From NCBI RefSeq assembly GCF_947623445.1, contig NC_135243.1:4280501-4344500 (forward strand): a DNA stretch of 64,000 nt, read 5' to 3'. The DNA is from Clavelina lepadiformis (lineage: Eukaryota; Chordata; Ascidiacea; Aplousobranchia; Clavelinidae). Under the pieces are notes generated by a model. The model was not told where the DNA came from, ran no database searches, and worked only from the letters and a program-made list of their open reading frames with translations. Both the position numbers and the translations under genes were made by a program. Below, one piece after another: positions 1-27,623 of the stretch; the first letter of the stretch is position 1; every line of letters begins with the position of its first letter.

Positions 1-914
1 GAAGAAAATTCATGCCAAACACCAATAAAAAATAAGAAAGAAAAGTGGTTGAATCAAAAGTTTATTGAGCAAATGAACATAATTATGTGCTACTGGGGTC
101 TAGGATTTAGGTTTAGAGGGTTAAGGTTTAAGCTAACAAAATCTCAAATCCAATTGAGTAAGTTAAGCGCCTTGTAGGCTGTGTTTCGTTTCACGTATGG
201 AGCTCTTGACCTGTAATAGGGCATAAGCGCCCTTAATACAACCGTTTTTGAGTAAAATTTTCATTCAATTTTTGCAAAAAAGTGTGACGTGATGGGTGAA
301 TTCTGACTGCAAATTCGGAATCAGCATAGTCAAATTGGGTAAACTCAATTAATTGTTTGAAACAAATAAAAAAAAAGTTGAAAAATGTCGCCTAGTGTAA
401 TCTATACTTGCAAGTGTAAGCCTAGAAATGCATTGCAGATAGATTAAATAGGTGAACACTTGGCTGAACTTGCACATCTGCAAACCCCAAATCTTGGCAA
501 ATCCGGCCATGAAATACAGACCGGGATATTTGTCTTTGCCCAGAAAACTGAAAATTGGCTATTTTTTGTTCAAATGCCGGCACACTAGGCTCTTTCATAA
601 AGAATTTATACTGAAACATACTGTGTTATTATACTGCCTGCATGCATTAGAAATATGTACAATGTGAATTGTGTATGTAGAAAATATTTTAGAAGTTTGA
701 TAGAAAGCCCAAAGTGCATTCTGTTTGACACTTACATCAAAGATAAGTTTGATGTACATACCTTAATGAACCCAAAAACATACAATGCCAACTGCAATCT
801 TTACAAAATCATATTGTGCTGTTTTTTGTCAAGTTATCTTGCTGCATACCTTCTTACTTTATTAAATTTTCTTTTAATTTCACCTGAATAACTGAACTAT
901 TTGTTATAATTAAG
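1..914. other. Upstream stretch, no gene seen
   Basis: I see no exon with convincing splice sites or known domain here. The short open frames at about 450-890 lack recognisable similarity. The first readable PRDM9-like exon opens in splice phase 1 right after this stretch, so it is probably intron or 5' flank of that gene. Its KRAB exon would lie further left. Confidence 0.5.
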
Positions 915-3900
915 GAATGCCACTCCCTAGCGAAACCTCACTTCGAGCTAAAATTGGCTTGCCCCCTCGCATCAAATACAACATTAAGGAAGAAGATACA
1001 GATGATGACAGTGATGAGGATTGGAAGCCTTATAAGTCAAAGCCCAAAAAACCTGGATTTACAAGTAAAACTGTTTCTTGAGAGCTTTGTTAAGGGAATT
1101 CCCACAATGCTTTGATTTAATATGATTCTCAAACTTTCAGTGGGTCGTGTATCAGTGCAATTTTTGAAGAATCATTTGATTGCTTACAAATGTATCCATA
1201 TGGTGCTTTTTACATATCATCAAAGTGGGCACCAAACGTCAAAAAACAGATGTTTGGCCCTGTAAGAATAAACGATACTAGGTGTTGGGTCAAAGCTAAT
1301 CTATATTTTAGCTACTTTTCGGTAGGGATGGGCCGATACGAACCCAAACCTGAATAAACTTGCCGAATATTGCCTTTATGGAAGATTCGGGCGAACATGA
1401 ATACCAACAATGGCGAACCCGAATACAAAATTACTTAAAAACTTACTGACTTTTGTTAAAAATGATGATCTAGTTTCCCGACAAAGGTAAACTAGAGTCA
1501 GCAGTACTTACAATGAAGGTCGTTTTCCCAACGATTTTGCTTTTTCAATTGTTTTTTAAACATTATTTTTCGAAAGAAAGCGTTTTTTTTATTGGTTACA
1601 TCATGTTACAAACAAGACTTGTCAACTTTTGGATGAAATTTAATTGTTTGGTTCTAATACGAATAGATTCGGGATTCGTTTGTGTCGACCTTCATGATAT
1701 TCGGGTTCACACGGACCCGAATAATCTTCCTCGCGGCACATCCCTACTTGACGATGTATTTCTATTGATGCTTGCTAAGGTTTTTGTAAGTTGAAGGTTA
1801 TGTTTGATGGATGGATTTGAAATTAAAATTTAATACACTTTCGATGCATGATATCCATTGCACTATGGTAACAAGTTAATCATTAAAGTTTATGTCAATG
1901 TAATTCGAATTCATGTTGAACCAAAAACCAAAGAGCTTCATACCTATCTCATGTTGTGGGTTGTAGTCTTGTGGACTGTGTGACTATAGTCTTGTATACT
2001 ATAGTATGGTCTTGTATAGTCTTGTATCTATACTTGTAGTCTTGTGGTTGACTATGCTGAGCAAATAGACATTTAACACATTTATAGATATATTTGTTGC
2101 CTATTGTGTATACTTATTGGCTAACACTGATTTTTTGTTTAGGTCTTTCAGACTTAATGAAAAGAAAGCTCTTCATTACAAAGGTTTGTCTGCGAAACAT
2201 TTATAATACAAGTTCTTATTAATTGGAATGTTATTGAAATGTAATTTATTTTTTACAAACAGAAGTGCGTCGTGGACAATGAAGATCATGATCCTAATGC
2301 ACTTAAGGGTGAAGATGTTTCGTTATTTGTGGAAAGGCGATCAGGTGGGATATAAATTTCACATAACATGTTTCATTCCTAATATTTTTAACATTATTAT
2401 ATGTTTCAGTATATTTGACTTGTATTACATTTTAGTTTATTTGTATGTAAGAAATATATGTATAACTCAACTTCGCCAAATTTTTACTGTCAAATTGCCC
2501 TTTACACGAAGCTTAATGTTTAAAACAAGGTTTGGCACTCTCTGGCTGGTGTTCTACAGCAAGGTGGTTATTCAGGGCATGCTAAGTGATTGAAGTCCTC
2601 GTCACACGAGGTCATAAGTACCCATTGCCCATTGTGTTGACGAGCCAAGTCACAAGATTACTCTTCTTACTGAAATGCTCACACTGACATGCAAGGAAAG
2701 ATTGTTCGGGCTAGTTTTAGTACGCTTACACTGCAGGCTTGATTTACAGCTCGATCAATTGTATTCTTTGTTTCTTTTATTCTCTGCCGTGCAATAATTT
2801 TTTTTGTATTTCACTTCAAGTAAGTTTTGTCCAGCATTCAGAAAAACAAAAGTTTTCACCAGAAACATTGTGTTGTTCAAAGCTATTTTTCATGGTTTTT
2901 TGTTAACATAACTTAAATGTTATAAGTTAAACATAGTATCCTAAACCAAACCTATTTAAAATATATCGGTACCTCCTTGTTATCTAAATCTAACTTCAGT
3001 TAACTCCTAAATAAGGCTACTATTCAAATCAGATTAGGTTTCTTTTACATACTATTAAGTTACTATTCAATTGATATAATACTAAACCACATTATTTTGT
3101 TATTCGAAGCCATTTGAAATTAACATTTTGTAAACAGGCACACTACGTTCAAATAATTGTCACCTCCTGGGTTTTTTTCATGTTGCTTAACCCTTTTTCA
3201 ATTTCAAATTTTGATTAGATTAGATTACTCTAAGTATCAGTATGAATAGTTTTGACTACATTAGATGAAACAAAATGGTATTATGAAGCTGTTGTTAATG
3301 GAGGATACTTTTTGCTGATTTTAGTTTAAAAAAAAAACCAGTTGAAAATATCACCATGTATTGTGCCACTTGCCGACTCGATAGCGAATCATTTGGGGTA
3401 CTAGGTTCACAGTAGTATGTGTATCCATTAAAATTTTTGCAAATACTTCTCATTAAAGGGGTTTGAGAGAAGATGAGAAATCATCTCCATGTAGGTCAAG
3501 TTGTCAAATCAAGTTGCAAAATCTGCCCTCAGTCCAGTGACCATTACCATTATCATAATTGCATGGCCGTGATTAGTTGGGGATCACGTCAATTGAACGT
3601 GAACAAATTCACCGGCGACAATTGGTCGTGGTCAACTGACCGGCAACAAATTGGCCGGCGACACAAATCGACCGCTACGCATTTTATTTTTATTTTTTAC
3701 GCAAATTAGCATTGTTGTTTATTCAAATTATATGATTTAAGTGATAATATGATTTAAGGTCAGGTGGTTCTAGGTAAATTTACGTCACGGTCAGTTGTCC
3801 CCCCGGTCAGTTGTCCCCGGTGAGTTTGTTCGCGGTCAATTTCCCACGGTTAATTGTCGTGGAACCGATTAGTTGAACCTATGTACAAGGTAGTAAGTAT

Positions 3901-6900
3901 TTTCATTTTAACGCCATTGTTTCGCCTACACTAAATAAGGAAATATATACAAGAATAGGGGCCTACTTTTTAACACCCAGGCTCAATGCAAATGGTATAT
4001 GCTTTTGGGTTCCACAAAATCAGGGTTGAAATTATAGTTTGACAGTGTTGGCGATGAGGGAATCACTGTGTCTGTCTATGCCAGATTTTGTACATAATCT
4101 TTTTATTTTCAGTTCTTCAAGTGAAAAGTAAAACTGAAAGCAATATGGAATTTGATGAAGAAAAGAATAACAAATGTGTTTCAAATTCTAAAAAAGATCC
4201 AAATGAGGTGATAAAACTACGTGTCGTTTTCTGTAAATTTAAGTGCATGCTTCGTCTCCATGGCAATGTGTAAACATATATCAGTTTTTCATCTGCATTA
4301 TTCTAAAAATTTTGGGTTACCGGTAGTTATTGACAGTATAGTTTCACAAGTCTACTTATATTTTTGAGCAGGCTAAATTGTACTTCTTATTTTCATTATT
4401 ATTATTACTATTAAGTTCTAATCTATTCTATTTAAGTTCTATTATTATTATTAGTATTAAGTTAATTCTTTATTATTAAGTACAGTAGTTAGTAGGTGCT
4501 GAGTAACAGTAATACCATAATAGTGGCCGATAGCACTAAATATGCACATTTTTACAAAACTTTCACTGCATTTTCAGACGACTGTTAGACATTCTGCAAG
4601 AAATATTTCCACAAAAAACTACTTGGAATCAAAAGTTTTGCAAGAAGATGATTTTCTTTGTAAGTATATATTAAGTTAATTGATGGTATATTTTAAATGG
4701 TACTGGTTTCGGCAAATTGAAAGTTGGTTTGTAAGTGAAAACTATCTAGCTAGTAACTCCATCTTGAACTAAGCTTCAACAGCATTCTCTGGAAATCAAT
4801 TTACGCAATAATTCTCTTCTACAGTTCATAATAAAAGTTTGATCTTTGTCGCATTTTGCAGATTGTGAAGACTGCAATGAGCTGTTAGATGAAGAATGTT
4901 CTATTCACGGTCCCTATCCTAAGGTTTCAGATACTCTTGTGAAATGGGTAAGTTAAAGTTATTGTCATGATAAAGGGTTTTAAACTGGGTTAAAACATCA
5001 TCATCGATCGCATTGCGTAGTTTTCAACCTTATTGTTTCGATGAATCCCTTTTGGTCTTTAGAAGACAAAACCTTAGAGTCTTAGACCATCACTTGTTTT
5101 TTAAATTATGTTTGTTAGCAAGATTAGTTTGTATATTTACAAACTGTTATGGCAGAAAACAGATTATGACAATATAAAAGTAACAATGGCTGTCGTATTG
5201 GGTAGTATGACACTTTATCGAAAGACACTTTATCAAACGACACTTTATCGAACGACAGTTAATCGAACGACAGTTAATGGAACGACACTTTATCGAACCG
5301 ACAGTTGATCGAACGACAAACTTTGACAATAGCTTCAAGCAAGATTTTTGCGTGTTTCTCAAACATTGAGAGTGAGACAATAAGCCATTGTGATGTGCGG
5401 CCTTTGTAATGGTGTACATTAATAAATTGTGATGTATATATCATAAAGTTGACGATTTATATTTTATATCTATATTTTATATTTGTATCAAAAAGTTGAC
5501 GATTTCGCATGGCGCCCGGCCTGCCATGCGAAATCGTCCGGCCCGCCGCTTCTTATTGAGTTTCAAACTGCAGTGTTAGCACTATTTGAAAAAATTGTGA
5601 TATTGTGACGCCGCGCCCCCGCTGTGCGGAAAACAAGCTGACCTCGAGAAGAGAACGAAACAGAATAGTTAGTAAAGTTATTGGTGCGTACATGAGTAAT
5701 ACGCTTCTGTAGCGGCCGTTGGATACTTACTGGTTTGTCGCTAGCTGGCGCCCTTTCGCGCGTGGTGATTTCCACGCTGCACGTCCGCGTTTTCACCCTT
5801 TTCGTTTTGCACTGTCTGAGCGCAGGACATCAGTTTGATTAAAGACCTGAAGTAAGAAGGTCGTGCCTTTTTTTCCTTTAATATATGAGCGAAGGTAACA
5901 GACAACGGAGTAGCAGCCTTCTGAAGCAGGAGTCAGCAACGGAACAACGTAACAGCTTTAGCCTTCGCCATACTTCAATGCGGAGAGAGCAAAATTATAT
6001 AAATATCTCAATATCTCAAAAATTACAAAATCCAACTTTATGAAACAAGCATGGACAGATTGCTGAACATTTTTTATGAAAAGTCACCAAATTTCAATTT
6101 TCTACAGCAAACAATGCAACTGTACGCCACGTTTTGCTATGACTGTGTGCGGGAGAAGCAACAGTTGATTCGATCAACTGTCGCTTTGATTAACTGTCGG
6201 TTCGATAAAGTGTCGTTCGATCAACTGTCGGTTCGATCATCTGTCGTTTCGATAATCTGTCTTTCGATTAAGTGTCGCGTCACGGTCGTATTGTGGGTCT
6301 ATCTATTTAGTTATAATATTTTTTCGTAGCAAAAGTTTTATAGTTAGAACATCCCTTGAAGCCTGACAGTAAAACGTTTTTACTGGTAAATAATGTTTCT
6401 GTTATATCTATGTTGCACATACATACTTACAGTGAATAATAACCCAGTAATAATACAATAATAATAATAACCCCAATAATAATACACGATTCCATGGTTT
6501 GTACCATTCAAAAAATAAATATTTTAACGCATAGCCTTTGGAATTTCTCATCTACTATAGTTATGTTCATACAATTTTAAGCTTGATTTGGTAGGGATTA
6601 GTGAATCGAGCAAGGCGTACTTGCCCACAAGGCGTAAGCATCGGACCATCAAATATTCGATCTGGTGGCAACGGTGCATGGGCTGACATAAATTTTTCCA
6701 AAAACTCAGTGTTTGGGCCGTACGAAGGTGTAAATATTGACAAGCATGATATGCAGAAATTGCATCTGACGTTTGAAGGCGGTTACTCATGGGAGGTTAG
6801 TGCGATGATATGAAATTATTCTGGTTCGTTTCATATGAATGAGCGCAACTTATTTTCATCATCACAAGGTAAAAAGTGACATTTTATAGTGAGGTTTGTG

Positions 6901-9015
6901 TCAACATTAAAACTTTGTGTGATTGCTAACATTGCTTTTTAATTTTGCCAGACAATCCCTATGGTTGAATGCCTTATCGATGTTTAAATAACGCAAAACA
7001 CAACCCCACATAAAGTGTTTTGTTGTCTGTCAAGATATTTTTTGTTATAAACACATAACTTTGTTGTTGAAGATTTACAGAAAGGGAAAGCTCTCACATT
7101 ACATTGATGGAGCAGATGAGAAGAAAAGTAACTGGCTTAGGTTCATTAATTGTGCAAGGTAAAATTTCTTGATTGCTTTTAAAACAAGGACAGCTAGGAA
7201 ACGCTGTGATATAGCAAAGCTAAACTTTCATTCATTATGATTAATCCACTCTAGCTTCGACTTGCTTTTAATTGACATGGTTTTTAGTTTTAGTAAAAAC
7301 AGAAAGTTTTTCACCAGTAGAAAGATTTAGTATTATGTCTTGTGTTTCATTTTTTTGTAAAATTGCTAACCATTTTGCAGAAACCAAGAAGAACAAAATG
7401 TAATCGCATATCAACACCACGGCAAAATTTATTACCGGGCGTTTAAAGAGATTTTAAGAGGAATGGAATTTCTGGTTTGGTATGGAAAGCAGTATGCTCA
7501 ACAACTGGGTATATCATCCAAGGCGATAAAGGAAGAAGGCCAGAACATTTCACACAGAAGCAAGCCCAACAGGATATGTAAGTTAAATTTGTTTGTTTTC
7601 TGTTGTGACGTAACCAATGAAACCAATATTAGGAACAACCTAAGTACGTATTGCTAAGCCCTCAAAGAACATATTTCCAAGCATGGAAACCACTGTTACT
7701 AAGCAACCATACTTTCTGCAATGATGAAATTCGTGTAATCGTGTGGATAAGCAAAATGTTACCTAATTTAAAAAACTGCCAATCAAACGTCGTATTAATA
7801 CCATCGTCACTCACTTGCAACGTTGTAAAAATGTAAGCAAACAACCGGCCTACCAAGATGCTGTGTTGGCGCTGTTAACGAGGTACTAGTTGTAGCAACT
7901 TCTAAATTGACCAGGAGATTTTGATGTAATTTCAACTTGGTGGCGCTATAGAGTTGTGATTTAGTGCAAAAAATTCGACCTCCATGTTCACCTCCAAACT
8001 GTATTGTAACTGATAATTTTATTTTATCCATAAACATTGTGATACTGTATACTACTACTTGTTCCTCTGTAATAAACCTATTTGTGACGTTACAATTGAT
8101 ACGTTCAACTGAAATTTTGGCGCATTTTGCAAGCTTCAGTTTTGAAAACTCTTTGCTGAGTGTAGCATCAGTGTCGAAGTGCTTTAGGTTTTACAGAAAG
8201 AATCAGTGAGTTTAGGCCAGCTTCTACTTAGTTACGATTTGTGCTGCTAGAATAATTAATCGGCAACTAGAACGAAATTAAACCGTGTTCATTGATTCGT
8301 TTGTAAAATTTCAGCACTTGCAGACTTTCAAGCTTGTGACAGATGCGAAAAGATCTTTTCTAACAAAGAAGCCTTGAACAGACATTTAAAGAAGAAGCAT
8401 GCGGACAGAAGTATTAAGAAACGACATCAGTGCAGGTTCTGTGATTATTCTACTGATTATGTTGGCCATCTGAGATCTCACATGTTAACACATACTGGTG
8501 AGAAGTCTTTCGTTTGTGAAACTTGCAAGAAGGCATTTAGATGGAAGAGCGCTCTACGCAGACACGAACGTACCCACACTGGTGAGAAAATGTACACTTG
8601 CGATCAATGTGGGAAGAAGTTTAATGAATCAACCACTCTACAAAGACATATCCGTACAGTTCATGAAAAACGTTTAGATTATGTTTGTTCCGTTTGTGGC
8701 GCGTCTTTTGGACGGTCAGGCCATCTTGCGACGCACATGGTGACACACACAGGTGTGCGCGCTTACAAGTGCGAGGACTGTGGTGAGAGGTTTGGGCGGG
8801 CTGGCACTCTACGAACACACCGACGCACACACACAGGGGAACGACCTTACAAGTGCGAGCAATGTCCGTCTGCTTTTATTGATTCATCGAATTTACATAG
8901 GCATGTCATCGTAAAACACACCAAGCGCTATCCTCATAGATGCTCGATCTGCGTGAAAGGTTTTCTTTCTCCAAGTCAGCTTCAGAAGCACGCAAACAAA
9001 TGTCACTCAAGTTGA
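915..9015 (+). CDS. PRDM9: PRDM9-type SET-domain zinc-finger gene (5' end missing)
   Basis: Exons: 915-1064, 2143-2183, 2263-2344, 4113-4207, 4578-4659, 4862-4947, 6595-6795, 7073-7158, 7381-7577, 8315-9015. All phases agree and give 572 residues from the first full codon. PRDM9 is a meiotic histone H3K4/K36 methyltransferase whose finger array chooses recombination hotspots. Exon 1 carries a DDDSDEDWKP motif like the sequence after the KRAB box. Exons 5-6 match the SSXRD-like tail running into DDFLYCEDC and the Cys/His knuckle ending in CSIHGP. Exons 7-9 are the SET domain (GPYEG, GGYSW, NWLRFINCAR, EEQNVIAYQ, IYYR, FLVWYG). Tyrosines equivalent to human Y276, Y341 and Y357 are present. The last exon holds eight C2H2 fingers. 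Exons 2-4 (Eb-Ed) are supported only by splice sites and phase. No KRAB exon is visible. Confidence 0.9.
1322..1747. mobile_element. Small inverted-repeat element, hAT-like
   Basis: The segment opens with GTAGGGATGGGCCG and closes with the inverse of GTAGGGATGTGCCG. That gives about 14-bp inverted ends with one mismatch around 0.4 kb without transposase coding. The flanks do not give a clean 8-bp duplication. It lies in the first visible intron of the PRDM9-like gene. Confidence 0.5.
1957..2051. repeat. TAGTCTTGT simple repeat
   Basis: Irregular repeats of TAGTCTTGT and TATAGTCTTGTAT in an intron of the PRDM9-like gene. No other feature seen. Confidence 0.6.
3580..3866. mobile_element. 287-bp element with 9-bp target duplication
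   Basis: The element is flanked by GATTAGTTG on both sides (3571-3579 and 3867-3875). Its ends are diverged inverted repeats beginning GG, with a shared CACG-CAATT-A pattern, followed by subterminal repeats of the kind CAACTGACCGG and CGGTCAGTTGTCC. It has no coding capacity. The 9-bp duplication and repeat-rich ends resemble Mutator-like (MULE) non-autonomous elements. It lies in an intron of the PRDM9-like gene. Confidence 0.65.
4375..4490. repeat. ATT-rich low-complexity tract
   Basis: ATT trinucleotide runs interrupted by TTAAGTTCTA pieces, within an intron. No other signal. Confidence 0.7.
5201..6284. mobile_element. 1.1-kb element with 15-bp repeat arrays as inverted ends
   Basis: The flanks share GTCGTATTG (5192-5200 and 6285-6293), a 9-bp target duplication. 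The left end holds about seven copies of a 15-bp unit, GACACTTTATCGAAC and variants (5209-5314). The right end holds about seven inverted copies of 15-16 bp (6163-6287). The core is GC-richer (about 5500-5830) and contains a 16-bp perfect hairpin, GACGATTTCGCATGGC at 5498-5513 pairing with 5523-5538. No transposase frame is recognised. A Mutator-like non-autonomous element carrying a foreign core is a reasonable guess. Confidence 0.7.
5498..5538. repeat. Hairpin with 16-bp perfect stem
   Basis: GACGATTTCGCATGGC at 5498-5513 is exactly complementary to 5523-5538, with a 9-base GC-rich loop. It lies inside the 5201-6284 element. Confidence 0.85.
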
Positions 9016-9228
9016 ATTATGACGCAATCGTAAGTAAATCGAAGTGTTCTAGACTAGATCTTCGACAACATGTTGTTTAAGTTTAAAACCGTTGAACTAT
9101 ACCGTTATGACGTCACACATAAGATTATTCAACACAATTTTTTTTAAATTTTCAAATAGTAACAAAGATTTGAAGTTTAAGGTTTGTTTGTTTTGTTGAC
9201 GCGAAATCTTAATTCATTGTGACGTCAT

Positions 9229-9234
9229 AATAAA
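9229..9234 (+). terminator. Polyadenylation signal after array 1
   Basis: AATAAA 214 bases past the stop of the PRDM9-like gene, overlapping a TGACGTCA palindrome. The same arrangement recurs after array 2. Confidence 0.5.
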
Positions 9235-11221
9235 GCTGTTAATTTCAATTGATGCTGCTTTGTATGAGTTTTAGTTGGAAATTGCTGCATTCTCATCAAT
9301 CTGAAAAGTACTAGCCCGTTTCTCTTCCAAATTATATTTCTGTTTTGTTGTTTTTCATTTGCGTTTTGTGTTAACGCTTGCAGCACCATCGCCACTGTTA
9401 CAATAATTCCAACTGTTAGGTGAATCCACAATGAAGTTATTTTGTTCTTGCAGTTTTTATTGTGTTTAATTATTATTTATTAATAAAAATTATCCTGGAT
9501 TAGACGAAACAATGTGAATCGAAGTTTTTAATCATCATTATTGCTTCGGATTCGGAATGCTTGTACGGAGCTGGCACCTGCAGAATTTATAGACCACAAC
9601 TATGCATCATGGGAATACATGCGTTCAAAATAATCATTTAAGTACAGTACTGTTGCGTATAATCTTTATACCCTGACTGAGGAAAATCTTTGCACAACTA
9701 TAACCAAGCAGTCATGGAATATCGGTTACAAAGCTTGCCTTTGTACAGTTACCGGTTGCCATTACCGCTCGTTCATAGCATTAAGGGATGCCAGAAATGA
9801 TCAACGTATCTTTGGCCTAATCCAATGGGATATACTGCAATTTCTGTAAAGTTTCCATAAATTACAAGATCGGATATCACTCCAGAATCAAGAAAACCAT
9901 TCCGATGCGTTTGAATTAAAATAAAACACATTTTCTTTACAATTCAACTGCAAGGTTATTTCCCGAAGCTAATACCACAAAAGTTCCATGACATGAAAAC
10001 ACTGCTGGAGATAAGGGTCCACAGATCGCCGATGAAGATGTTTTTAATAACTTGAAAAATTTGCTCCTACAAAGCAATTAATCTTAAGTCAATTTCATCG
10101 ATCTATCACACAAACAACGGAAGGGTTATAAATAATTTCGGTGGTTTTTTTTAGGCCAACAAAGCAGATTTATTCCTCTGATTTGGATTAAGATCGCCAC
10201 ATCGGTCGAGGGACCCAGTGCGCTACCGCGCTTCGGGTTTAACTGCAAATTACTCGAAAACTACCCATCGTAAAACAACAAGGTTTTACCAGTCATAACA
10301 GAAAAGTTTAGGCTTTAGGTTTGCTGCATGATACTATTGTTGTGGAAGGCACACCTCGTGCAAAACACCAAGTTTATTCCCGGCTCCGTTGGCTCTTTAT
10401 TTTTTTGACTTGCCACCTCCCGTTGATTTTTTTTCCATGCATATTACGCTGGGAATAAAATCTGGGACAGAAAAGAAAGGAGACTAAAGCAAGATGGACA
10501 CAACCCAACACAGAGATACAATAACCAATCACGAGAGAGGAAACAGTGTTTTTGTAAGAACTGCTGCGATGAAGAGAAATAACCAGCATTGGCCGCCTAT
10601 AGATCGGACTTTATCATTCTTGAGCGCAAATAAAATAAGTGATTGTCTTTGACGTCACCAAACGCAGGGGAAGGAGAATCACCCCTATAGGCAAAGCAAC
10701 GTTCATTTAATTTAATTTTTTTGTTTTTTTTTGGATTTTGCTCACTGCAAACGTCTCATTTTTAAGCAAATTATAACAGCTACAAGTATACTTTTTGTTT
10801 TTTCTTTATAATCTAACATAAAACCCTGAATTCGAACTAAAGTTATGAAATCTGAAGCCAACATCGGAAAAACAAGACCCACCAACGACCGTTTGGAAAC
10901 CCAGCTGTCCAAATCAATTTTCATGTAGATGCAACTTTTGTTGCGATCAGTCCGAAATATCCGTCGATTTACCTCATTTACTTTGCGTTCAACATTACTA
11001 GATGATTGGAATGGTAAAGGACGAAGGACAGTAATAAAGTGTTTGTGAGGAATAGAACTGTTCGTTTAGAACTGTTCATGACTATAAGATAGAAAAAAAT
11101 CCAAACCCAAGCTAAGGTTCATATACAGCACTTAAACTCGTAAAGGTAATGGTTAGATACTTTCTGCAATTTTTTTAAAGACAGTATAGCAAAATATTAC
11201 AACTTTTATTGCGAAAATTTC

Positions 11222-11614
11222 TTGCACATAATTACCATACGGACGATCCTACAAGCATTAATTGTTTTGGATCGAAAGATATGTTGCTTTATTAAGAATG
11301 AAATTGAAGTTTGGCATAGTGACGTAATAACGTCAGGAGAACGGACAAATATAAGATTTAAAGTTAATGTTCTTACAATCAACAGACTCAGACGATCTCA
11401 GATTGCAGCAGAATTGCGTTTTCTATCATTTTTTTCACATTACTCATATCATTTTATTCGTGTCCTTACCAATACAACAGACGTAGGAACATCTATTAAA
11501 CGACAACATGTCTTACTTGATAATACCAGAGCTTTTGGCTTACTGACAAATGGATTGACACGTTTCGTATTAAAATTGGTGTATTGGCAATGTTCATTTA
11601 GTGTCGGTAAGTAA
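11222..11614 (+). CDS. Conserved 130-residue frame in unit A, possible first exon
   Basis: An open frame of 130 codons, kept open in the duplicate at 19590-19982 despite substitutions. No known domain is recognised. A strong donor, GTCG followed by GTAAGT, lies at 11606/11607 and leaves the frame in phase 1, the phase of the zinc-finger exon acceptor at 15859. It could therefore be an alternative first exon for array 2, joined across the insertion at 12.7-14.4 kb. Most differences between the two copies change the residue, so it may equally be a chance frame. Confidence 0.3.
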   Translation: MHIITIRTILQALIVLDRKICCFIKNEIEVWHSDVITSGERTNIRFKVNVLTINRLRRSQIAAELRFLSFFSHYSYHFIRVLTNTTDVGTSIKRQHVLLDNTRAFGLLTNGLTRFVLKLVYWQCSFSVGK

Positions 11615-12710
11615 ATCACAACAGTATTGGTTTCTAATGCGGATATTTTCGTATAGTACGTCCGTCAACGCATTGATTAATTATATAACCTTCTAGTCGA
11701 ATCATGCTTAACTTTATTCTTCCACATTTACTTCAGCCTGGAGTAACAAGTGTGACTTGCTGTTATATTACAAAGATGTTTTTGCATTTCAATAAACAAC
11801 CTTGAGAGAAAGCGCGGGGAATCCAAACAAACAGCGATAGTTTTTAAAATCAATTTTTTGTAGTTCTTATATTGCAATGAAGTGGAAGTTATGCTGCAAC
11901 CATGTGTGTCAATCTATCTTGCTTTAGTTTTAGAAAACAAGTCAAATGTGTTTTGGTCAGGGGTGCGTGTGCGAGTGAGTTTTTCTCGATATATTTGATC
12001 TGAGCATTTCAGTTGTAAGAGACGAGTTCCAAATCGTGTTGGGAAAAAATGGCAAAAACACTAACGAGCGATATTTTGAGTAAATACAGAAGAATTAGAA
12101 GAACATACAAAATTTTTGATTGAAGACATAAAGACATACGTTAGCAAACATAAAGAATACGATGCAGAAGGTTTGGGCACATTCTATTAGAAAAGAGCAT
12201 TATTTGGAAATCATTTATCTCGGTTGGTTCGTGGATGTATTAAAATGAAAAGAGGCAGTTTCGATTTTGCCATCAGAATCTGGCAGAGTAAAATGCTTCG
12301 GCAGATAAAATTTGGACAAAATAACTTGTGGTGTTTCCAAGTATATCTTTATTACCCAAAAGCATCTTATTCTAATTCAAATATACTTACATCTATATAC
12401 GCGATATTAAAAGCCTAACTGGTGTTTCGCATTAATCGCTTTTTAGCAAATAAAAGTTGTAATAAAATTACGTAAGTAAGTACTTCAAATTTAGATTAAT
12501 AAGAGCATTTAATTTTAAACATACAGTTTGTTCGGTGAAACAGCGACATTCATGGAGATACGCACAGGAAAATGCTTTCTGCAATATATCTGGTACATTT
12601 GTAAGGACGCATGAAGCTTTGTATAGTTGGGCACATAAACCACGTAATGCTCTTAATAAACAGCTGGTAGTTTAGATGTTATCATTTCAATGAATAGATG
12701 AATAACACTG

Positions 12711-14430
12711 GTCTGCATGAAAATTTTATTTTGTATGATGCCAACGTTTTCTAGCTAATTTTGGTGCGCTGATTTCAAAAATGCCATCCTTTTTTGGCTG
12801 TCACATCAGGTTTTAAAGTTACGGTCGAAAAACCGCATTATTTTTTGCTTTTACGTTTAACTACCCACTTTTTTGTCATAAGGATATAATTTATCAAGAT
12901 AAATGTTGTTATCACAACGAGCTACGTATGTGCATCAAAGCTACGTATGTGGTACCATAAAAAACTCAAGAGCCTCCCCTTTGGCGTCCCTACGGTATGT
13001 AGGGAGCAAAAAAAAAACATCGCAATGACCGTTATTTTTGTATGGTGTCTTAAGGGGTTTAACAGAAGAAACAAATCCAATATCAAGTACCCTAATTTAA
13101 AGTCAGCATTGAGACCTGTACGACATTGTGATGAAATTCCTGTGCCGAATCCTCTAACAGAGAAACAAAGCTCCTCAGAATCTGAAAGAAGTGCAGGTGA
13201 TGGAGAGCACTATCAGGAAGGAATAAACGATGACTCTCCAAAGCTGTTTTCACAAACTCAGCTGAATGATCTCACAAGAGAGTTATATCTTTCAAAAGAA
13301 TATGCACAACTTCTAGCATCAAGATTAAAGGAAAAGAATCTTCTAGAAAAGGGAACAAGTTTTGCGTGGTTCCGCCACAGAAAGAAAAAATTTACAGAAT
13401 TTTTTAGTAAAGAAAATACTCTGGTTTTTGGAAGAATGTTCAGGGTTTAGTTGAAACATTTAGGATGTCATATTCAGCAGAACATTGGAGACTGTTTATA
13501 GATTCTTGGAAGACGAGCATGAAAGCTGTGTTGTGGTACAAATGTACAATGGGCAAACTGTGCCATCAGTACCTGTTGCACGTTTTACTGTGATGTCAGA
13601 AACGTATGAAGACATGGAAATTCTGTTGCAAATGATAAAGTACCAAGAGCATAACTGGTTGATATGTGCTGATTTAAAAGTCGTAGCTCTCATACTATAC
13701 TACACTAAATTTCCCTGTTTTCTTTATCTCTGGGACAGTAGGGCGGATACTTCCCACTTTACGCGGAAATTGTGGCCAGCAAGAGATGAGTTTCTGCCTG
13801 GATCTAAGAATGTGAAGGCACATCCTCTTGTTGCTCCAGCAAAAGGTTTTTTTACCGCCCTTGCACATCAAGTTTGAGTGCATGAAAAACTTTGTGAAAG
13901 GTATGGACAAATACGGAGAAGGATTTAGGTACTTGCAAGAAAAGTTTTTGTCTTTATCCGAAGCTAGACTGCAAGCAGGTATTTTCACTGGACCTCAAAT
14001 CAGAGAACTGTTGAAGGATGAAGATTTCGAAAAAAAAGTCTAGCTTCGGGTAAAGACTGCAAGCCTGGAAGTGGTTAAAAGCTGTTATCCAGCAGTTCCA
14101 TGGAAATAACGGAGCCTCCAATTACAAACAGCTTATTACAGATATGCTCGATGCCTTACAAAAACTTGGGGTAGAATGATCGTCAAAATGCACTTTTTAC
14201 CCTCCCACCTAGACTACTTTCCAGATAACTGTGGGACGTTAAGTGAGGAACAAGATGAACGTTTTCACCGGGAGATAATGGTGATGGAGGAACGCTATCA
14301 GGGTAAGTGAAATGTCATCATGATTGCTGACTACTGCTGGTGTCTTAAAATTGAAGACTCTACTAAACATGAGAGAAAATCAGGTAGACGCGCATTTTCA
14401 ATAAAATAGATACCGAGATAAATAGATATC
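12711..14430 (+). mobile_element. Transposon-like insertion, multi-copy invertebrate protein family
   Basis: This segment is absent from the matching place in unit B (21081-21090), so it inserted after the duplication. It encodes pieces of a protein I recognise from multi-copy uncharacterised genes of many invertebrates. Motifs are QLNDLTRELYLSKE, NWLICADLK, YTKFPCFLYLWDSRAD, LPPLHIKFECMKNFVKGMD, GPQIRELLKDE, HLDYFP and MEERYQG. Conserved acidic residues suggest a transposase-like enzyme, but I cannot name the superfamily. The coding region is clearly broken in several places. Clear terminal repeats were not resolved. Confidence 0.6.
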
Positions 14431-15858
14431 TGCTGACATTACCATTTACCGTTTAAGGTTAAACTGCAGTCGAATACCGAAGAATTATATTGCCGGTAGA
14501 AAACGTTTTTAAAATTAGACAGGTTCAGTTGCTTCAAACCTTGTCCGGCAAATGTATATTTACTGGTTTCAATTTTTTTCACATCTTGGGAAGACTTCAG
14601 TGCGGTATACAAGTTTATATTCACAAAACTGTCGTGAAATGTTGTGTGTGTCAACCTATGTTGCTTTTGTGTTGGTCAAAATGTGAAACGCGTTTCTGCC
14701 TGGGGTGCAAGTGCGGGTGTAAGTTGACTCGTTATTCGATGTGAGCAATTAAAGTTGTAACAAACGAGTTCTTGAACGTTTTGGAAAAGGTTTTAATAAA
14801 ACTTCAACAAAATAATAACATCAGGAATTTTTGAGTACATAAAGAAATAGTTTCAGAAGGTTTGTGCATATTCTATTAGAAAACGAAAAGCATTATTTGA
14901 AGATCAATTTATTGCGGTTGGTTCATGGCTTATTAAAGCAGAAAGTCTTACGCTATCACAAGAATTTTCTGCCTCAACAACCACTGACTTGTCGCAGACC
15001 TTCGCTGGTAGAATTATTATTACCTTATTGCTTGTATTACAAATTAGACCAAAATCTACGCATCTACCAAAGCAAATCTGTGTGCAAAGTTTCTCATGAC
15101 TTTTTCCAAACTTAACAAATAATTGACAATATCCAGGGTCAAATATTAATTCAGCGATAAGTATCTTAACACCAACTATACTTTACAAATACAGAAATGA
15201 TCATAACAAAAATACTCCTTTGGTGAATGAGTTTTTTTTATGTTTCCGAGTTTTGTCTGATCCATGGCAGTAAACTTCGTAGCAGGATGGATTACAATGA
15301 TTCGAAATTATTTCGTATTAAATTCATGCATTGTCATGGTGGCATTGCATTGTCGTTGTCATATTTTCAAATAAAGCATGATTTAATCCAGTTTCACATT
15401 TAAGCATAGGCTTTAACTATTTTCCACACGGAATGTCCAATACCAATTTGACTTAAAACCAGCGTTGCATTGGACGATATATTCATTTTGTGACGTCATA
15501 TTAAGTCATTATTTAAGTTATAAATAGCGCTTAATTTGTATATCGCTCAACCATTAAATAACACAAAAATACTTCTGTGGTATGTGTTTATTCAAAGACA
15601 ATTTGTAAATGATTACGAATTTTACTGTAAAATAACTTTCACATATCATAAAATCAGTCAGATCAATCAAAATTTTAAACGCTCCATTATCGTACGTTTG
15701 TCGGACTGATTTTAATATTTGTTAAGATAATCTTGTGTCGCCATTCTATAAAATGATTCACTTCTGATAATTAGATTAGCTGTCGACCCTGTGTTAGATA
15801 TTTTAGCAAAATGTTAATTTGATAACTTACTTCAAAAGTTTTGATTTATCTTTTACAG

Positions 15859-16550
15859 TTATTGAAGCTTGTGACAAATGCGAAAGCACTTTTTCTAACA
15901 ATGACGCCTTGAACCGACATAAAAAGACAAAACATCCAGACAGAAGTATCAAGAAACGACATCAATGCAAGTTCTGTGATTATTCTACGGATATTGTTGG
16001 TCATCTGAGATCTCACATGTTAACACATACTGGTGAGAAGCCTTTCGTTTGTGAAACTTGCAAAAAAGCATTTACACAGAAGATAAGTCTACGCAGCCAA
16101 GAACGTACCCACATTGGTGAGAAAATGTACACTTGCGATCAATGTGGTAAGAAATTTAATGAATCAACCCATCTACGAACACACATCCGTACAGTTCATG
16201 AAAAGCGCTTAGATTATGTTTGTTCCGTTTGTGGCGCGTCTTTTGGACGGTCAGGCGATCTTACGAAGCACATGGTGACACACACAGGTGTGCGCGCTTA
16301 CAAGTGCGAGGACTGTGGTGAGAGGTTTGGGCGGGCTGGCAATCTACGAAGACACCGACGCATACACACAGGGGGGCGACCTTACAAGTGCGAGCAATGT
16401 CCGTCTGTTTTTGCGCGGTTAGCAAATTTACGTTCGCATGTCATCGTAAAACACACCAAGCGCTATCCTCATAGATGCTCGATCTGCGAGAAAGGTTTTC
16501 TTTCTCCAGGTCGGCTTCAGAAGCACGAAAATAGTTGTCACTCAAGTTGA
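15859..16550 (+). CDS. Zinc-finger array 2 (PRDM9-derived terminal exon)
   Basis: The exon starts at a TTTTACAG acceptor in phase 1 and stops at 16550 (230 codons including stop). It encodes eight C2H2 fingers, nearly identical to array 1 except at recognition positions. Residues at -1,2,3,6 for fingers 3 to 7 are ETHT, RGDK, RGNR, RANS, SGRK, against ETTR, RGHT, RGTT, DSNR, SSQK in array 1. Finger 2 has lost its first zinc-binding His (Gln instead) and has a HIGEK linker. No short acidic first exon is seen nearby, because unit A lacks the segment that carries it in unit B. The exon could be joined to the PRDM9-like donor at 7577, to the 11222 frame, or be unused. Confidence 0.75.
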
Positions 16551-16768: not shown

Positions 16769-16774
16769 AATAAA
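16769..16774 (+). terminator. Polyadenylation signal after array 2
   Basis: AATAAA in the duplicated 3' region, overlapping a TGACGTCA palindrome exactly as after array 1. Confidence 0.5.
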
Positions 16775-18125: not shown

Positions 18126-18915
18126 TGTGGCGTTTGGATATCATCTAATTAACCAAGTTTTATAATTGACACTTTTAAAACGCGGTTTTTGCATTTTCTC
18201 TAGCTGGAATTAAGTAAATGTTTATACAAACAATTAGCGTTGCTAAGCTCCTATTTAAACATGGAATTTTAAAACCAACATATGTGACGCAGATTGAAGT
18301 TTTGAAGTACCTTGTTTTCACGGTGTATAGTTTGAGTGCATTCGATAAAATGTATAGATAAAGTAAAACGACACGTGGTGTATGCGACACGTGGTTTTAT
18401 GATAGCAATGATTGGTTCTAGTATCTTAATCAAATCGTAGTTTCAAACCAACATGTGATGTAGTAAGTGTGTCAAGTGGTTTTCTGTATTTGAATTCTTT
18501 GTGCTGTAAAGCTTAGAATAACAGGGACACATGTACACGTGGATAGAGAAGTAATTTGGAAGCGCTGATTGGTCAATACTTTAGTATAAAAAGAAATGTT
18601 TGGTTCAAATCGCTCTCTTACTCTCGTCTCTGACAAACGGATCTTGGAAATTCTCTCTTCTCTGAGTTATTTCCATTGTTCTGTAAAATTGAAGTTAGTA
18701 CTGAATTACTATGAAAGTGGGATCATGGTGTAAATATTGCTAATTCGATACAACTGATTCGGACAATATAACAACTGAACTTTATGAAATTGGTGTTGAT
18801 TTAAGAAGCAATATAGAGACAGTAAACGCAACGGAGTCAAGATAACTAGCTCGGAGTCAACAGTCAGACTTGGCTTAGGCCAGTCCAGAAACCAATCCAC
18901 CACCCCAAATCCCAT
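18126..18915. mobile_element. 790-bp insertion with 5-bp target duplication, solo-LTR-like
   Basis: Unit A shows the empty site near 10528. In unit B the insertion is bounded by AGAGG on both sides (18121-18125 and 18916-18920). It starts TGTGGCG, contains a TATA-like TATAAAAAG near 18585 and a pyrimidine-rich stretch after it. No coding region is recognised. A solo LTR of a Gypsy-type element is the best reading, but the right end (CCCAT) is not a classic CA end. It is younger than the unit duplication. Confidence 0.4.
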
Positions 18916-21968: not shown

Positions 21969-23904
21969 ATGGATGAGGAAGAAAACCGTCCAAGTCACTC
22001 TCGTGGAATGGGTAAGTTTGGTTTCGATTCAAACACTATCTCGACTCCATAACATTGGTTCTCATCCTTTCAATGACTGTGGTTCCTTACAGCGACAGGC
22101 TAAATCCGTGCCCACTGCTCATCTATAAAAAGTGTAGATTGTTGATGACAAAACAATTAACTCCACTACCTCGTGCGCAGTAGACTTTCAGCTGCTACTT
22201 TTGTATACGAAGCATATGCACAAAAACGTTAGGAACTTGTTTCCGGCTTTGCCTCGTCTTTCGCTTCTTTTACATTATTGGTCATAAGTGAGGAAAGTGA
22301 TTTGATAGTGATCTATTAATCCACTTTTACCCCCGGATATCGCTTTCAGGCCCCCCAGGGAAATTATTGTGCCTAGGTTGAAAAATCCTGATCTCGAGTC
22401 TTACGCCATCAAAAGGTTTTTCTGCCTGTGCAATCACTAACTTGTTACAGACCTAAACTACAGTAAATCGTATTTTGGATTCATCTTCATTAGTCGCTCG
22501 TATAATTAGTATTATCTTATTGCTTGTATTATAAATTAAACTAAAATCTACATATCTATAAAGAAAATCTGTGTGTAAAGTTTCTCACGACTTTTTCCAA
22601 ACTTAACAAAGCATTGTTGACAATATCCAGGGTCAAATCTTAATTCAACGATAAGTATCTTAGCACCAACTATACTGTACTTTACAAATACAGAAACGGT
22701 CATAACGAAAATGCTCCTTTGGTAAATGAGTTTTTTTGGATGTTTCCAAGTTTTTGCTGATCCATGGATTTAGCTTCGTAGCAGGACGGATTACAACTTA
22801 TTATTTCTATTATTTCTTTACTATTATTTCGAACTTATTTCTTATTAAATTTATGCATTGTCGTGGTGACATTGCATTTTCATTGTCGTATTTTTAAACA
22901 AAGGACAATTTTATCCAGTTTCAAAGTTAAGCATAGATTTGAACTATTTCTTACACTAAACGTCCAATACCAGTTTGACTAAACACCAGCGTTGCATTGG
23001 ACAACTTTATTCATTATGTGAAGTCATATTAAGTCATTATTTACGTTCTAAATAGCGCTTAATTTGTATATCGCTTAACCATTAAATAACATAGCAATAC
23101 TTTTGTGGTATGTGTCAATTCAAAGACAATTTGTCAATGATTTCGAATTTTACTGTAAAATAACTTTCACATATCATAAAATCAGTCAGATCAATCAGAA
23201 TTTTAAAGCCCTCCATTATCGTACGTTTGTCGGACTATTTTTAATATTTGTTGATAATCTTGTGTCGCCATTCTATAAAATGATTCACTTCTAATAAATA
23301 CATCAGTCGTCGATCCTGTGTTACTGTGTGTATCCAAAATGCTAATTTGATACCTTACTTTAAAAGTTTTGATTTATTTTTTACAGTTATTGAAACTTGT
23401 GACAAATGCGAAAGCACTTTTTCTAACAAAGAAGCCTTGAACAGACATAAAAAGATAAAACATCCAGACAGAAGCATCAAGAAACGACATCAATGCAAGT
23501 TCTGCGAGTATTCTTCCAACTCTGCATCATCACTTCGCCGTCACATGTTCACACATACTGGCGAGAAGCCATTCGTTTGTAGAATCTGCCAGAAGGCGTT
23601 TACTAAAAAAGGCAACTTACGCACACACGAACGTACCCACACTGGTGAGAAAAACTATACTTGCGAACAATGTGGTACGAAGTTCAACTTCTCAGGCAAT
23701 CTACAAAGACACGTTAGTACCGTTCATGAAAAGCGCTTGGATTATGTTTGTGCCGTTTGTAAAGCATCATTTGGACAGTCAGGCCATCTTAAGAGGCATA
23801 TGGCGATTCACACAGATGTGCGCGCTTACTTGTGCGAGGACTGTGGTAAGAGCTTTGATCGGGTTGGCAAACTACGAAGGCACCGACTTGTACACACAGG
23901 GTAA
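21969..23904 (+). CDS. Stand-alone zinc-finger gene with array 3, truncated
   Basis: Exon 1 is 21969-22011 (ATG, 14 codons plus one base, donor GTAAGT). Exon 2 is 23387-23904. The junction gives a Val codon and an open frame. The N-terminus MDEEENRPSHSRGM is short and acidic, with no SET domain. Exon 2 encodes the leading finger and five more. Finger 1-5 residues at -1,2,3,6 are SSSR, KGNT, FGNR, QGHR, RGKR. A TAA follows HTG in the linker after finger 5, where arrays 1 and 2 have GAA or GGG codons. Remains of finger 6 continue in the same frame to about 23988. It may make a shorter DNA-binding protein or be a young pseudogene. Confidence 0.65.
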
Positions 23905-25120
23905 CGACCTTACAAGTGCCAGCAATGTTCGTCTGCTTTTGCTGGCTGTTCTCATTTGCAAACGCACGACATCAAACAAAAACTCTAAAGCACTACAATA
24001 GGAAACGAGAAACCGTAAAATTATTTATAAGGTTATGACTGATATAAACACCACATAATATCTCACTACGACTTGAGTTTTTATCTAAGTTTTAGTCTTT
24101 TGTGTACTTGTGACGTCATAAAGCTGTAGTTGTTGTTGTTTTGTGGAAAATTGATGTGAGAATTTTTAAGAGTGACAACAATATAAACCTCAAAATGCAC
24201 TTCACCATGGTGAAGTTAATCCTTTCTAAATTTTTTTTAACAAATGTTTGCAATTTTTATTGTTTTATATGCGGTTTTAATAAAATTAATGTCGTTGATT
24301 AAAGTAAAAAATTTGAAGGTCATTTCACTTTTTGTGAGATACATTACAACCGGCCCAGTATCTTAATAATACAGTTTGAACTGCCAATTGTACAGATACT
24401 TATAGAGCAGCGATGGATTTAAATTAAATTTTTTAAAGTTTTATTTTACTATGTAGTGGAAGCTATGCTGTAGCTTAACAATTACCTTATTTTGAGTTTC
24501 CGCTTAAATAAAATCATTAGAATGAAGAAAACTGTTTGAACAAATAAAGCTTTGACCATTAAAAGTAACCTAATTTTCTGGAATTCATCTAATTCCTCTT
24601 AAATGTCACACAGACCACATAGTAAATTATTACTGACGGTAAGGTAAGAGAAAGATGAAACGAAAGTTTGGAAAATAGTATGAAACACGTCGTTTCTGAC
24701 CAAGTTTAATTTAAGTTTATTTACAGCACTGTAAATTTATATTAAGAATAAGATTTTGGTTACAATTCTGTAACGTTTAACTTGAGTTAACAAGAAGCTG
24801 TGAGAGAAAGTTTCAATTTTTTTCACATCCTGGGAAGCTTTCAGTGCGGTATACAAGTTTATATTCACAAAACTGTAGTGAAATGTTCTGTGTGTCAGCC
24901 TATGTTGTTTCTGTGTTTGTCAAAATGTGAAACGCGTTTCTGCCTGCGGTGCATTTACGGGGTTGGTTTACGGCTGTAATTGAAAAAAACAGTCAATTAA
25001 GAATACCTATTTGTGCATTTTGTGAATTCTGCATAGAGTTCTGTTTTCGTTTGTGAAAACAATATGGATGATGAGGAAAATCGTCCAAGTCACTCTGGTG
25101 GAATAGATAAGTTTGGTTTT
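23387..25120 (+). repeat. Truncated third unit (C)
   Basis: Array 3 is followed by a shorter, more diverged spacer. Stretches at about 24447-24480 and 24810-24965 match unit A near 11870 and 14570-14710. The stretch 25015-25110 matches the first-exon block of unit B near 21900-22015. No other gene is seen between 23990 and 25063. Confidence 0.65.
25064..25106 (+). pseudogene. Orphan short first exon without donor
   Basis: Same 43-base length and near-identical coding (MDDEENRPSHSGGI) as the first exon at 21969-22011, but the donor reads ATAAGT instead of GTAAGT. No + strand zinc-finger exon follows it in the window. It is a relic of a further duplicated unit. Confidence 0.7.
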
Positions 25121-26539
25121 GATTACAATCTAGGGTCTAACTCTATCAGCGCGGAACTTACAACCTAAGCGATCGAACACTCGTTACAGGCTTACTTCCA
25201 CTTTTTTAAGTGAGTTGTAAAGTATGCTACCGTTAATTTGTTGTTCAATTTGCAGTTCATTTTATTTCAATTCTGTTGGTATGGTGGTCAATTTGAAATT
25301 TATTTAGGTTAAATAAAATTTTATTTAAACTTTCATTTGAAAAGAATATTCCTGGAATTTTCGAAAATTATATTTTACAAATAATTCACAACACAGTCTT
25401 TATGAAATATTTGCCTTGAATGTAATGAATATGAAAGTTTGTAACAAATATCTTTCATTGTTATTGTATTTTAGTTGATACGGTAGATAATATCACAATA
25501 GATTCGTGTGATATACATTTACTTTATTAGTCGGGCACTTTCAACTTACTTCACATTATGCTTTGTATGTTCATATTTTGAGCTGCAAAACGTTTTGTTA
25601 CGTCGCATTGATTAAAGTTATATCGCTATTACGTTATGACGTAATGACAAGGTGGTTCATTCACTTAATGCCAATTAACTCGTCAAAAAGTTATTTTAAA
25701 GCTTTTGAACAAATATACTATTCGTTAACTCATAACCCGAGGCAATGAAACCAGGGAATATTAATTATAACAATTAGTTAATAAGCTGTCATACTTTGAA
25801 GTAAGACAATGTGGTATAACAAGAAAAACTAACTCACTCCAAAATTAAGTAAAACCTGCAATATTTTCAAATACATATTCATAATTTTAAACAAAAAAAA
25901 GTATTTCTCAATTAAAAGGAAATATTTTATTGTATATTGTACAACAGCTGTAAAAATTTATTTTATTAAGACGCGAAAAATAGGAAAAACGTGTTTAACA
26001 GAAAAATATTTTCCGCGGTAAAATATTTATCTTAAAGTAACCACTTTGAAGTAAGACACTGTGGTATAACAATAAAAACTAACTGATTTAACAAAAATGA
26101 CAAATCAAAACCTAAAAATTAATAAGCGAATGCAAAAAACAATTTCAAATAAACATAGACCTATTCATCATTTAAAAAGCTTAGTAATTTCCAACTAAAA
26201 ACGGATATTTATTGTATACTTTTAAACATCAATAAAACACAATTTAATTATTTATGACGTAACAAATGGATGACAACGCGTACAAGAGAAATATGCATTT
26301 TTGTCGCAAAAAGTATAATTTGAAATCTGAATTTCGATTTCTTTACACTCCCTTTGTCACATTTTGTGTCTGAGAAGTTACCGCGGGCTTGTGAAATTTT
26401 CTCCGTGCTCTTGAGGCTTGCCAAGGGTGTTAAAATTCTGTTCGCAAATAGAACATACATGAGAAAAGCGCTGGGTGTGTTTTGACATAATGTGTAAACT
26501 TGATGGAATATTGGAAGCATATGGACATTTCTCACATCT
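25107..26539. other. Spacer at the turning point of the cluster
   Basis: AT-rich sequence with no supported gene, except for the direct repeat at about 25.79-26.24 kb. The right end (26.4-26.54 kb) holds decayed finger 6 and 7 sequence that belongs to array 4 past its stop. Confidence 0.6.
25793..26235. repeat. Two-copy direct repeat of about 250 bp
   Basis: CTTTGAAGTAAGACAATGTG near 25795 recurs near 26045 with few changes. Later parts (TATTTTATTGTATA near 25923 and TATTTATTGTATAC near 26203) also pair. No coding. Confidence 0.6.
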
Positions 26540-27623
26540 CTAAGATCGGTCTTCGGTGTGTGTTTTTTCGTGGACTTTTAAGTTGTATTCACGTGTGTAC
26601 ACTTTTCCACACTTCTCGCACTTGTAATCACGCGCACGTGTGTGTGTTTTCAAGTGCCTTGCAAGAACACTTGCTTGTGCGAACTCAGCGTTACACACCG
26701 GACATTTATGATCCAAACGCTTATCATGAGCTGTGCGAACGTGTCTTCTTAAGCTGCTTGAACTGTCGTACTTTTTGTCACATTTTTCGCAGGAGTGATT
26801 TTTCACTATTTGACTCTCGTGTACTCGAATATGACACCTTCGGAGAAACTCTTTGTTGCAAATTTCGCAAACGTAGGGCTTTTCAGCAGTAAGTGTTTCC
26901 ACATGGCGTTTGAAGGCGTCTTGTCGATTCGAAGAATAACCACAGGTCGTACATTGGTGTCGCTTCTTATCTCTCGCATCTTCATGCTGCTTTTTCGATT
27001 GTTGGCTGGAAGATTCGTCGCTGGAAATCCATTCTTCAGACTTATCACTATCTTGGTTATCTAAATAGAAAGAAATACAAAAATTTAATTTGCAAAACTG
27101 CGACCAAAGACTGTAGTTTAGAAATAACATAATGTTTATTCAATTAATTTTTTTTAATGATATCACACGAAAAAATTAACTTTTATAATAATTTGAAATA
27201 GCTTTAAAATTTTTAGCAAATCGTGTGTATACGTGCAAACAAAATAAGGTTAAAATGCTTTTCGACTTAAAACTTCTGCTCTATTTGTGAACAAAAAGTC
27301 TGTTGCTGCATAACCAAGAAAACAGTTTTGCATATTAATTATATTCTAATGAATTACTTGTATTGTCAATGTCTATTTAAAACCCTCGCGTCTATCTACT
27401 GTCAAAATTACCCAGCTCCAAACATCCTAGTCAAATAACAACAACATGTTATGCGAAATAATTTTACAGAGTAGTCCTTTAGATATTTTTTAGTGACTGC
27501 TCAGGCGATCACACAGGGAGTGTCGGTTGACTGGTATAGGGTAGAACTCAAGATATTATTGGAAACATAAACAAACTTACCAATTTCACGAGAATGACTT
27601 GGACGATTTTCTTCATCATTCAT
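26540..27623 (-). CDS. Stand-alone zinc-finger gene with array 4, degenerating
   Basis: Exon 1 is 27581-27623 (MNDEENRPSHSREI, donor GTAAGT). Exon 2 is 26540-27060. The junction makes an Asp codon, giving 187 residues. Exon 2 opens with an acidic, Ser-rich stretch (DSDKSEEW, DESSSQQ) before the fingers. Fingers 1 and 2 have each lost their second His ligand (Leu and Ile), while fingers 3-5 keep all ligands. A TAG follows HTEDRS in the linker after finger 5. Sequence for fingers 6-7 (CEKCPYAS, HVCSICEQNF) continues in the same frame beyond it. The first exon is close to that of array 3, but the fingers are more diverged. A shortened protein or a pseudogene in decay are both possible. Confidence 0.6.

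Follow-up and report, generated by a model that had tools for sequence, protein, structure and literature searches.

Sequence evidence for positive selection on DNA-contacting residues between tandem zinc-finger arrays at a PRDM9-like PR/SET locus in Clavelina lepadiformis

A PRDM9-like PR/SET module and a tandem pair of zinc-finger (ZF) arrays lie on contig C4 of the ascidian Clavelina lepadiformis (genome of 209 Mb, 95 contigs), within a window of 64,000 bases (C4:4280501-4344500) whose own numbering is used throughout. Array 1 (8315-9015, + strand) is a ZF exon with eight C2H2 fingers, a phase-1 acceptor and a polyadenylation-like hexamer (AATAAA or ATTAAA) at 9229. Array 2 (15859-16550, + strand) is a tandem copy of array 1, likewise with eight fingers, a phase-1 acceptor and such a hexamer, at 16769; in both arrays the hexamer lies ~215 bases past the stop. 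Upstream of array 1, on the same strand, three exons encode a PR/SET domain. Exon A (6592-6795, 5′ boundary approximate) contains FGPYEG, whose tyrosine aligns to Y276 of human PRDM9; exon B (7073-7158) reads YRKGKLSHYIDG...NWLRFINCAR; and exon C (7381-7577) has tyrosines at the places of Y341 and Y357 (KIYYR, VWYG), so that all three catalytic tyrosines are kept in alignment. The tyrosine numbering is that found in the accessible part of Baker et al. 2017, with the register inferred via a common offset. Exon C ends at a donor GT (7578) in phase 1, the phase of the acceptors of both arrays, and is separated from array 1 by a 737-base gap with compatible splice phases.

Arrays 1 and 2 differ mainly where C2H2 fingers touch DNA. 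Both are open, of equal length and alignable without gaps across 227 codons. The first-pass annotation of this DNA had counted 22 differences among the 142 residues of fingers 3-7, 11 of them at the 20 contact positions (-1, 2, 3 and 6 of each finger) and 16 in the helix from -2 to 6. These counts hold up, and our alignment makes the bias slightly stronger than claimed, with 24/142 residues, 13/20 contacts and 19/40 helix positions differing (Fisher's exact test, contacts versus other residues, P = 1.2e-7). Across fingers 2-8, 16/28 contact residues differ versus 16/166 of the rest, and the 28 contact codons, out of 194, hold 26 of the 55 nucleotide differences, a number reached by 0/20000 shuffles that preserve codon position.

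Contact residues have changed faster than neutral sequence, and the finger scaffolds more slowly. Two estimates of the neutral rate agree: 194/1506 sites in the 3′ flank and 10/89.8 synonymous sites in the backbone of fingers 2-8. Over the same fingers, nonsynonymous change at contacts (23/62.9 sites) exceeds the flank rate (P = 3e-6), nonsynonymous change in the backbone (11/324) falls below it (P = 4e-8), and the nonsynonymous-to-synonymous counts differ between contacts and backbone (P = 0.009). A codon alignment comparing the ratio of nonsynonymous to synonymous rates (dN/dS, or omega) at contact and other codons, the check that the annotation had named, puts contacts above one and above the rest: in a pairwise codon model for which the contacts were defined in advance, omega is 5.8 at contacts and 0.51 elsewhere for fingers 2-8 (P = 3e-6), and 8.5 and 0.47 for fingers 3-7 (P = 1e-6). 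The flank has 12 indel events in 1594 columns, and the 681 exon bases have none. A third array, array 3 (23387-23973, + strand; exon start placed as in array 2, by analogy), has six fingers, and an in-frame stop interrupts the linker preceding finger 7. Both of its pairings, with array 1 and with array 2, give a contact omega of 2.6 over fingers 2-6 (P ~0.008). Contact dN between arrays 1 and 2 is thus above the neutral rate on scaffolds held under constraint, and positive selection on binding specificity between the tandem arrays is well supported by the sequences.

Lost constraint is a different way to read these changes, with array 2 as a decaying copy. Finger 3 of array 2 lacks its first zinc-binding His (codon 78, 16098-16100, is CAA, Gln), and no PR exon was found for this array, either in the three + strand frames of 9001-15860 or among the genome-wide matches listed. 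Array 3 is truncated, array 5 (33488-34042, - strand) is a broken relative with stops and deletions, and array 6 (26443-26897, - strand) is a broken, more distant one. However, neutral decay predicts the flank rate everywhere, which the slow nonsynonymous change of the backbone contradicts; the frame of array 2 is intact and free of indels; and contact change stays above the flank even without finger 3 (P = 0.0008). We consider decay as the main cause quite unlikely. Several observations do count against selection as the whole account. The flank comparison survives the omission of finger 7 (P = 0.0001), and dropping fingers 3 and 7 together weakens it to P = 0.024. The NG86 contact ratio over all eight fingers is 0.44/0.19 (~2.3), with only 23.9 synonymous sites. 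The strong signal comes from one recent pair: the three pairs among arrays 1-3 are significant, whereas the three among loci L006, L007 and L011 have a contact omega of 0.6-1.2 and are not. Part of array 2's change could be relaxed constraint, because, besides the zinc-ligand loss in finger 3, its scaffold has derived states at codons 83, 166 and 170. Finally, independent point mutations poorly explain a dense cluster of differences in the helix of finger 7.

In that cluster, the finger-7 helices (8872-8901 and 16407-16436) carry dense multi-nucleotide differences and are flanked by identical codons. Such a block between identical stretches could mean that short gene conversions copied helices out of other fingers, with little selection, and synonymous differences are indeed fewer in fingers 5-8 than in fingers 2-4 (P = 0.014, uncorrected). 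Potential donors are scarce, however. For the finger-7 helix of array 2, no second genome match lies within 3/24 bases; that of array 1 has one (3 mismatches, on contig C7, unexamined), and a reversed-pattern control gave as many; and for the finger-7 and finger-3 helices no donor closer than 7/24 mismatches occurs in the sequence searched. Helix pasting with little selection is, in our judgement, distinctly improbable. A templated helix swap was rejected, the donor search of the assembly and local sequence being empty save for that one chance-level C7 match. We also make no claim of recent conversion across fingers 5-8, which is weakly supported (P = 0.014 and 0.028, uncorrected).

Arrays 1 and 2 arose by duplication and have a mosaic structure. 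They are two loci or exons, not alleles. Homology between them starts at the exon start and extends into the 3′ flank, and upstream of the exon the match of array 2 is with array 3. Within finger 1, 13 sites are shared by arrays 2 and 3, 1 by arrays 1 and 2 and 3 by arrays 1 and 3; in fingers 2-6 the corresponding numbers are 14, 76 and 15. The switch point falls at 8435-8442 (array 1 coordinates, + strand), left of which array 2 mostly matches array 3 and right of which it matches array 1. From this change in matching, either array 1 or array 2 is a recombinant, the two being tandem copies. Neither this separate history of finger 1 nor the lost zinc ligand of finger 3 was noted in the first-pass annotation. 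The tandem units also differ by two inserts. One of ~1.7 kb (12703-14425) is absent from the other unit (junction 21088/21089); it resembles a mobile element, the ATAGAT close to each end could be a target duplication, and its open reading frames (12890-13450 and 13464-13877) have no Pfam match above cut-off. The other, of ~0.8 kb (18126-18915), is confined to the second unit and has AGAGG at either end.

The domain upstream of array 1 resembles PRDM9 more than other PR/SET proteins. Against solved structures it scores best with PRDM9 (4c1q, 3.1e-32), followed by PRDM14 (1.2e-23), PRDM4 (2e-20) and PRDM11 (3.3e-20), a ranking by sequence score against solved structures only, with no phylogeny. 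Its exon A is under constraint relative to seven other copies (omega 0.22-0.53). Neither KRAB nor SSXRD was found in the three + strand frames of window positions 1-8321, nor KRAB genome-wide nor SSXRD in a further search, and in each case the positive control was silent as well. We infer that array 1 is spliced to these PR exons and forms the last, ZF-encoding exon of a PRDM9-like PR/SET-ZF gene.

This gene belongs to a cluster of PR copies. A genome search with the PR domain of array 1 gave at least 38 matches, all of those listed lying on C4 at 4.19-4.44 Mb and including at least 13 copies of the first PR exon; the Pfam model gave at least 25 PR matches genome-wide, 24 of those listed in this cluster and one on C2. 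Both totals are lower bounds. Among the 14 exon-C copies read, all three tyrosines are shown only for the copy belonging to array 1: nine of the other 13 have F or H at the place of Y341, three more have F at the place of Y276, and for the last, L007, exon A was not read. Not every PR copy looks constrained, because the exon-A pair L033-L034 has an omega of 1.28. For several PR copies of the cluster, the stretches examined show a short ZF array or none that can be recognised.

Six arrays lie in the window, the remaining one being array 4 (29828-30505, - strand), which is open and has eight fingers. Among the genome-wide PR matches listed, a PR/SET domain is seen near array 1 only, with none between or near arrays 2-6. 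Arrays 1-3 share a direction, and their open frames contain no ATG before finger 2. Because of this lack of an ATG and the phase-1 match between exon C and the acceptors of arrays 1 and 2, arrays 1-3 could be alternative terminal exons of a single PRDM9-like gene, with the PR/SET module (6592-7577) spliced in phase 1 to any one of the array exons. We think such an arrangement unlikely on present sequence. If it were true, one enzyme would have several DNA addresses, selected to diverge.

The contact signature is not confined to PR/SET genes. From outside the C4 group we took the 19 loci that score best against array 1 (L012-L030) and compared them in 58 pairs passing an identity filter of 0.78-0.99. 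Contact dN exceeds backbone dS in 56/58 of these non-PR poly-ZF pairs (the exceptions, below 1, are L019-L029 and L013-L023), with positions -1, 3 and 6 highest. The pairs are non-independent, sharing sequences, and some count double since L014/L015 and L027/L028 are near-identical; the finger register between loci is not proved. In the codon model, 3/5 hand-picked control pairs have P < 0.05. For comparison, contact dN exceeds backbone dS in 4/7 pairs from the PR cluster, one of them barely (0.541 versus 0.536). The pattern therefore looks general for duplicated poly-ZF genes in this genome. Emerson & Thomas 2009, in the portion available, describe it for vertebrate poly-ZF expansions and not for fly or mosquito, and their Table 2 in that portion lists no Ciona.

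These comparisons divide the claim of the first-pass annotation that the pattern is the signature of PRDM9-type selection. Selection on contacts is borne out, and a PRDM9-type PR/SET domain does precede array 1; that the pattern is a PRDM9 hallmark is not supported, given its presence in 56/58 non-PR pairs. The annotation was right that fingers within one array are not near-identical: those of array 1 average 44% nucleotide identity, with 59% for the best pair, and concerted evolution inside array 1 was rejected on these values. The share of within-array diversity at -1, 3 and 6, a statistic like that of Baker et al. 2017, is 0.187 for array 1 and 0.17-0.19 for nine arrays of the C4 group (including L005, far from the cluster), compared with 0.28-0.42 for the 19 loci L012-L030. 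The mammalian within-array signature is therefore absent. The PRDM9 link holds at the level of the PR domain and is not needed to explain the contact signature. Because poly-ZF duplicates that lack a PR domain show the same signature, contact-residue selection alone is no evidence for recombination targeting.

Two drivers are compatible with positive selection on the contacts. One is a meiotic race of the PRDM9 kind, in which the gene steers recombination, hotspots erode and new specificities are favoured. The PRDM9-type domain with Y276, Y341 and Y357 points in this direction, as do the intact tyrosine triad of only this exon-C copy among those read and the significance of contact selection in arrays 1-3 and not in L006, L007 and L011. 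The breadth of the signature among non-PR pairs, the low diversity share of array 1 and the failure to find KRAB or SSXRD, though with silent controls, argue the other way. A meiotic PRDM9 role for the array 1 gene is possible, and a hotspot race as the driver seems to us rather doubtful. The other driver is selection for recognition of transposable elements, a role proposed for KRAB-ZF and fish FiNZ-ZF genes and one that Wells et al. 2023, in the part of the paper available, argue for metazoan ZF genes. Many poly-ZF loci elsewhere in this genome have the same contact pattern where compared, which is in keeping with it. Against it stand the failure to find a KRAB (control silent) and the nature of the domain preceding array 1, a PR/SET methyltransferase type that carries the catalytic tyrosines. 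Transposon recognition is a possible driver, held tentatively. The driver need not be meiotic, as ordinary poly-ZF duplicates of the genome share the pattern.

Taken as a whole, we find it likely that the ZF exon of a PRDM9-like gene gained a tandem duplicate whose contacts were replaced by positive selection while the scaffolds were kept. Under this proposal, the array 1 exon and its 3′ flank would have been duplicated to give array 2 as a tandem relative, and the copies would have recombined near the border of fingers 1 and 2. Afterwards, purifying selection would have kept the finger scaffolds, and positive selection would have exchanged the residues that touch bases. With contact residues replaced on kept scaffolds, the two arrays should read different DNA. 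The PR exons, the duplication, the mosaic structure, the scaffold constraint and the excess of contact dN over neutral change are seen in the sequence; that array 2 is expressed, that the arrays truly bind differently and what drives the change are suppositions.

Other features of the window include a stretch coding for leucine-rich repeats (54804-55787, - strand), a SYF2-like splicing factor exon just under cut-off (60343-60858, + strand) and a short-chain dehydrogenase-like exon (36002-36289, - strand). The zf-CW domain has three genome matches, on C7 (L041, L042) and C1; ZCWPW1/2 are partners of PRDM9 in vertebrates. Three minor searches were uninformative: a guessed splice-context pattern had no matches, a linker pattern had 7 versus 6 for its control, and a phage collection gave no match. 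In the literature, searches for urochordate, ascidian or tunicate PRDM9 or zinc fingers found no paper, with most subscription journals outside coverage, and other searches returned no title or abstract start naming such a PR-exon cluster. Fumasoni et al. 2007, in the accessible text, give just two PRDM genes for Ciona intestinalis.

Three known systems offer comparisons. In Drosophila lola and mod(mdg4), one N-terminal module is followed by several possible zinc-finger terminal exons. The likeness holds only if arrays 1-3 are alternative exons, and the difference is that alternative use here is read from orientation and splice phase alone. Poly-ZF expansions, KRAB-ZF and others, share with this locus tandem duplication, conserved scaffolds and contacts diverged among recent paralogs; array 1 differs in having a PR/SET methyltransferase-type domain, not KRAB, SCAN or BTB. 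PRDM9 itself, as known from mammals, salmonids and Nematostella, is matched by the closest PR/SET similarity, the three tyrosines, a C2H2 array in a later exon and positive selection on contact residues, here between arrays. Near-identical fingers produced by concerted evolution are a feature of mammalian PRDM9, not of all PRDM9. Differences from PRDM9 are that no KRAB or SSXRD was found here (controls silent), that fingers of an array are not near-identical, that change runs between neighbouring arrays, and that the array 1 gene sits among tandemly clustered PR copies, most with altered tyrosine motifs. The available text of Baker et al. 2017 describes rapid ZF evolution in complete vertebrate PRDM9 orthologs and its absence in partial fish ones, and that of Oliver et al. 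2009 reports that Prdm9 is under positive selection in Nematostella, with no such selection in tunicates, Ciona among them. If the array 1 gene is a working PRDM9 relative, it would be an instance of selection on contact residues in a PR/SET-ZF gene where no KRAB or SSXRD was found, in contrast with the partial fish orthologs of the former study and the tunicates of the latter, as far as those texts go.

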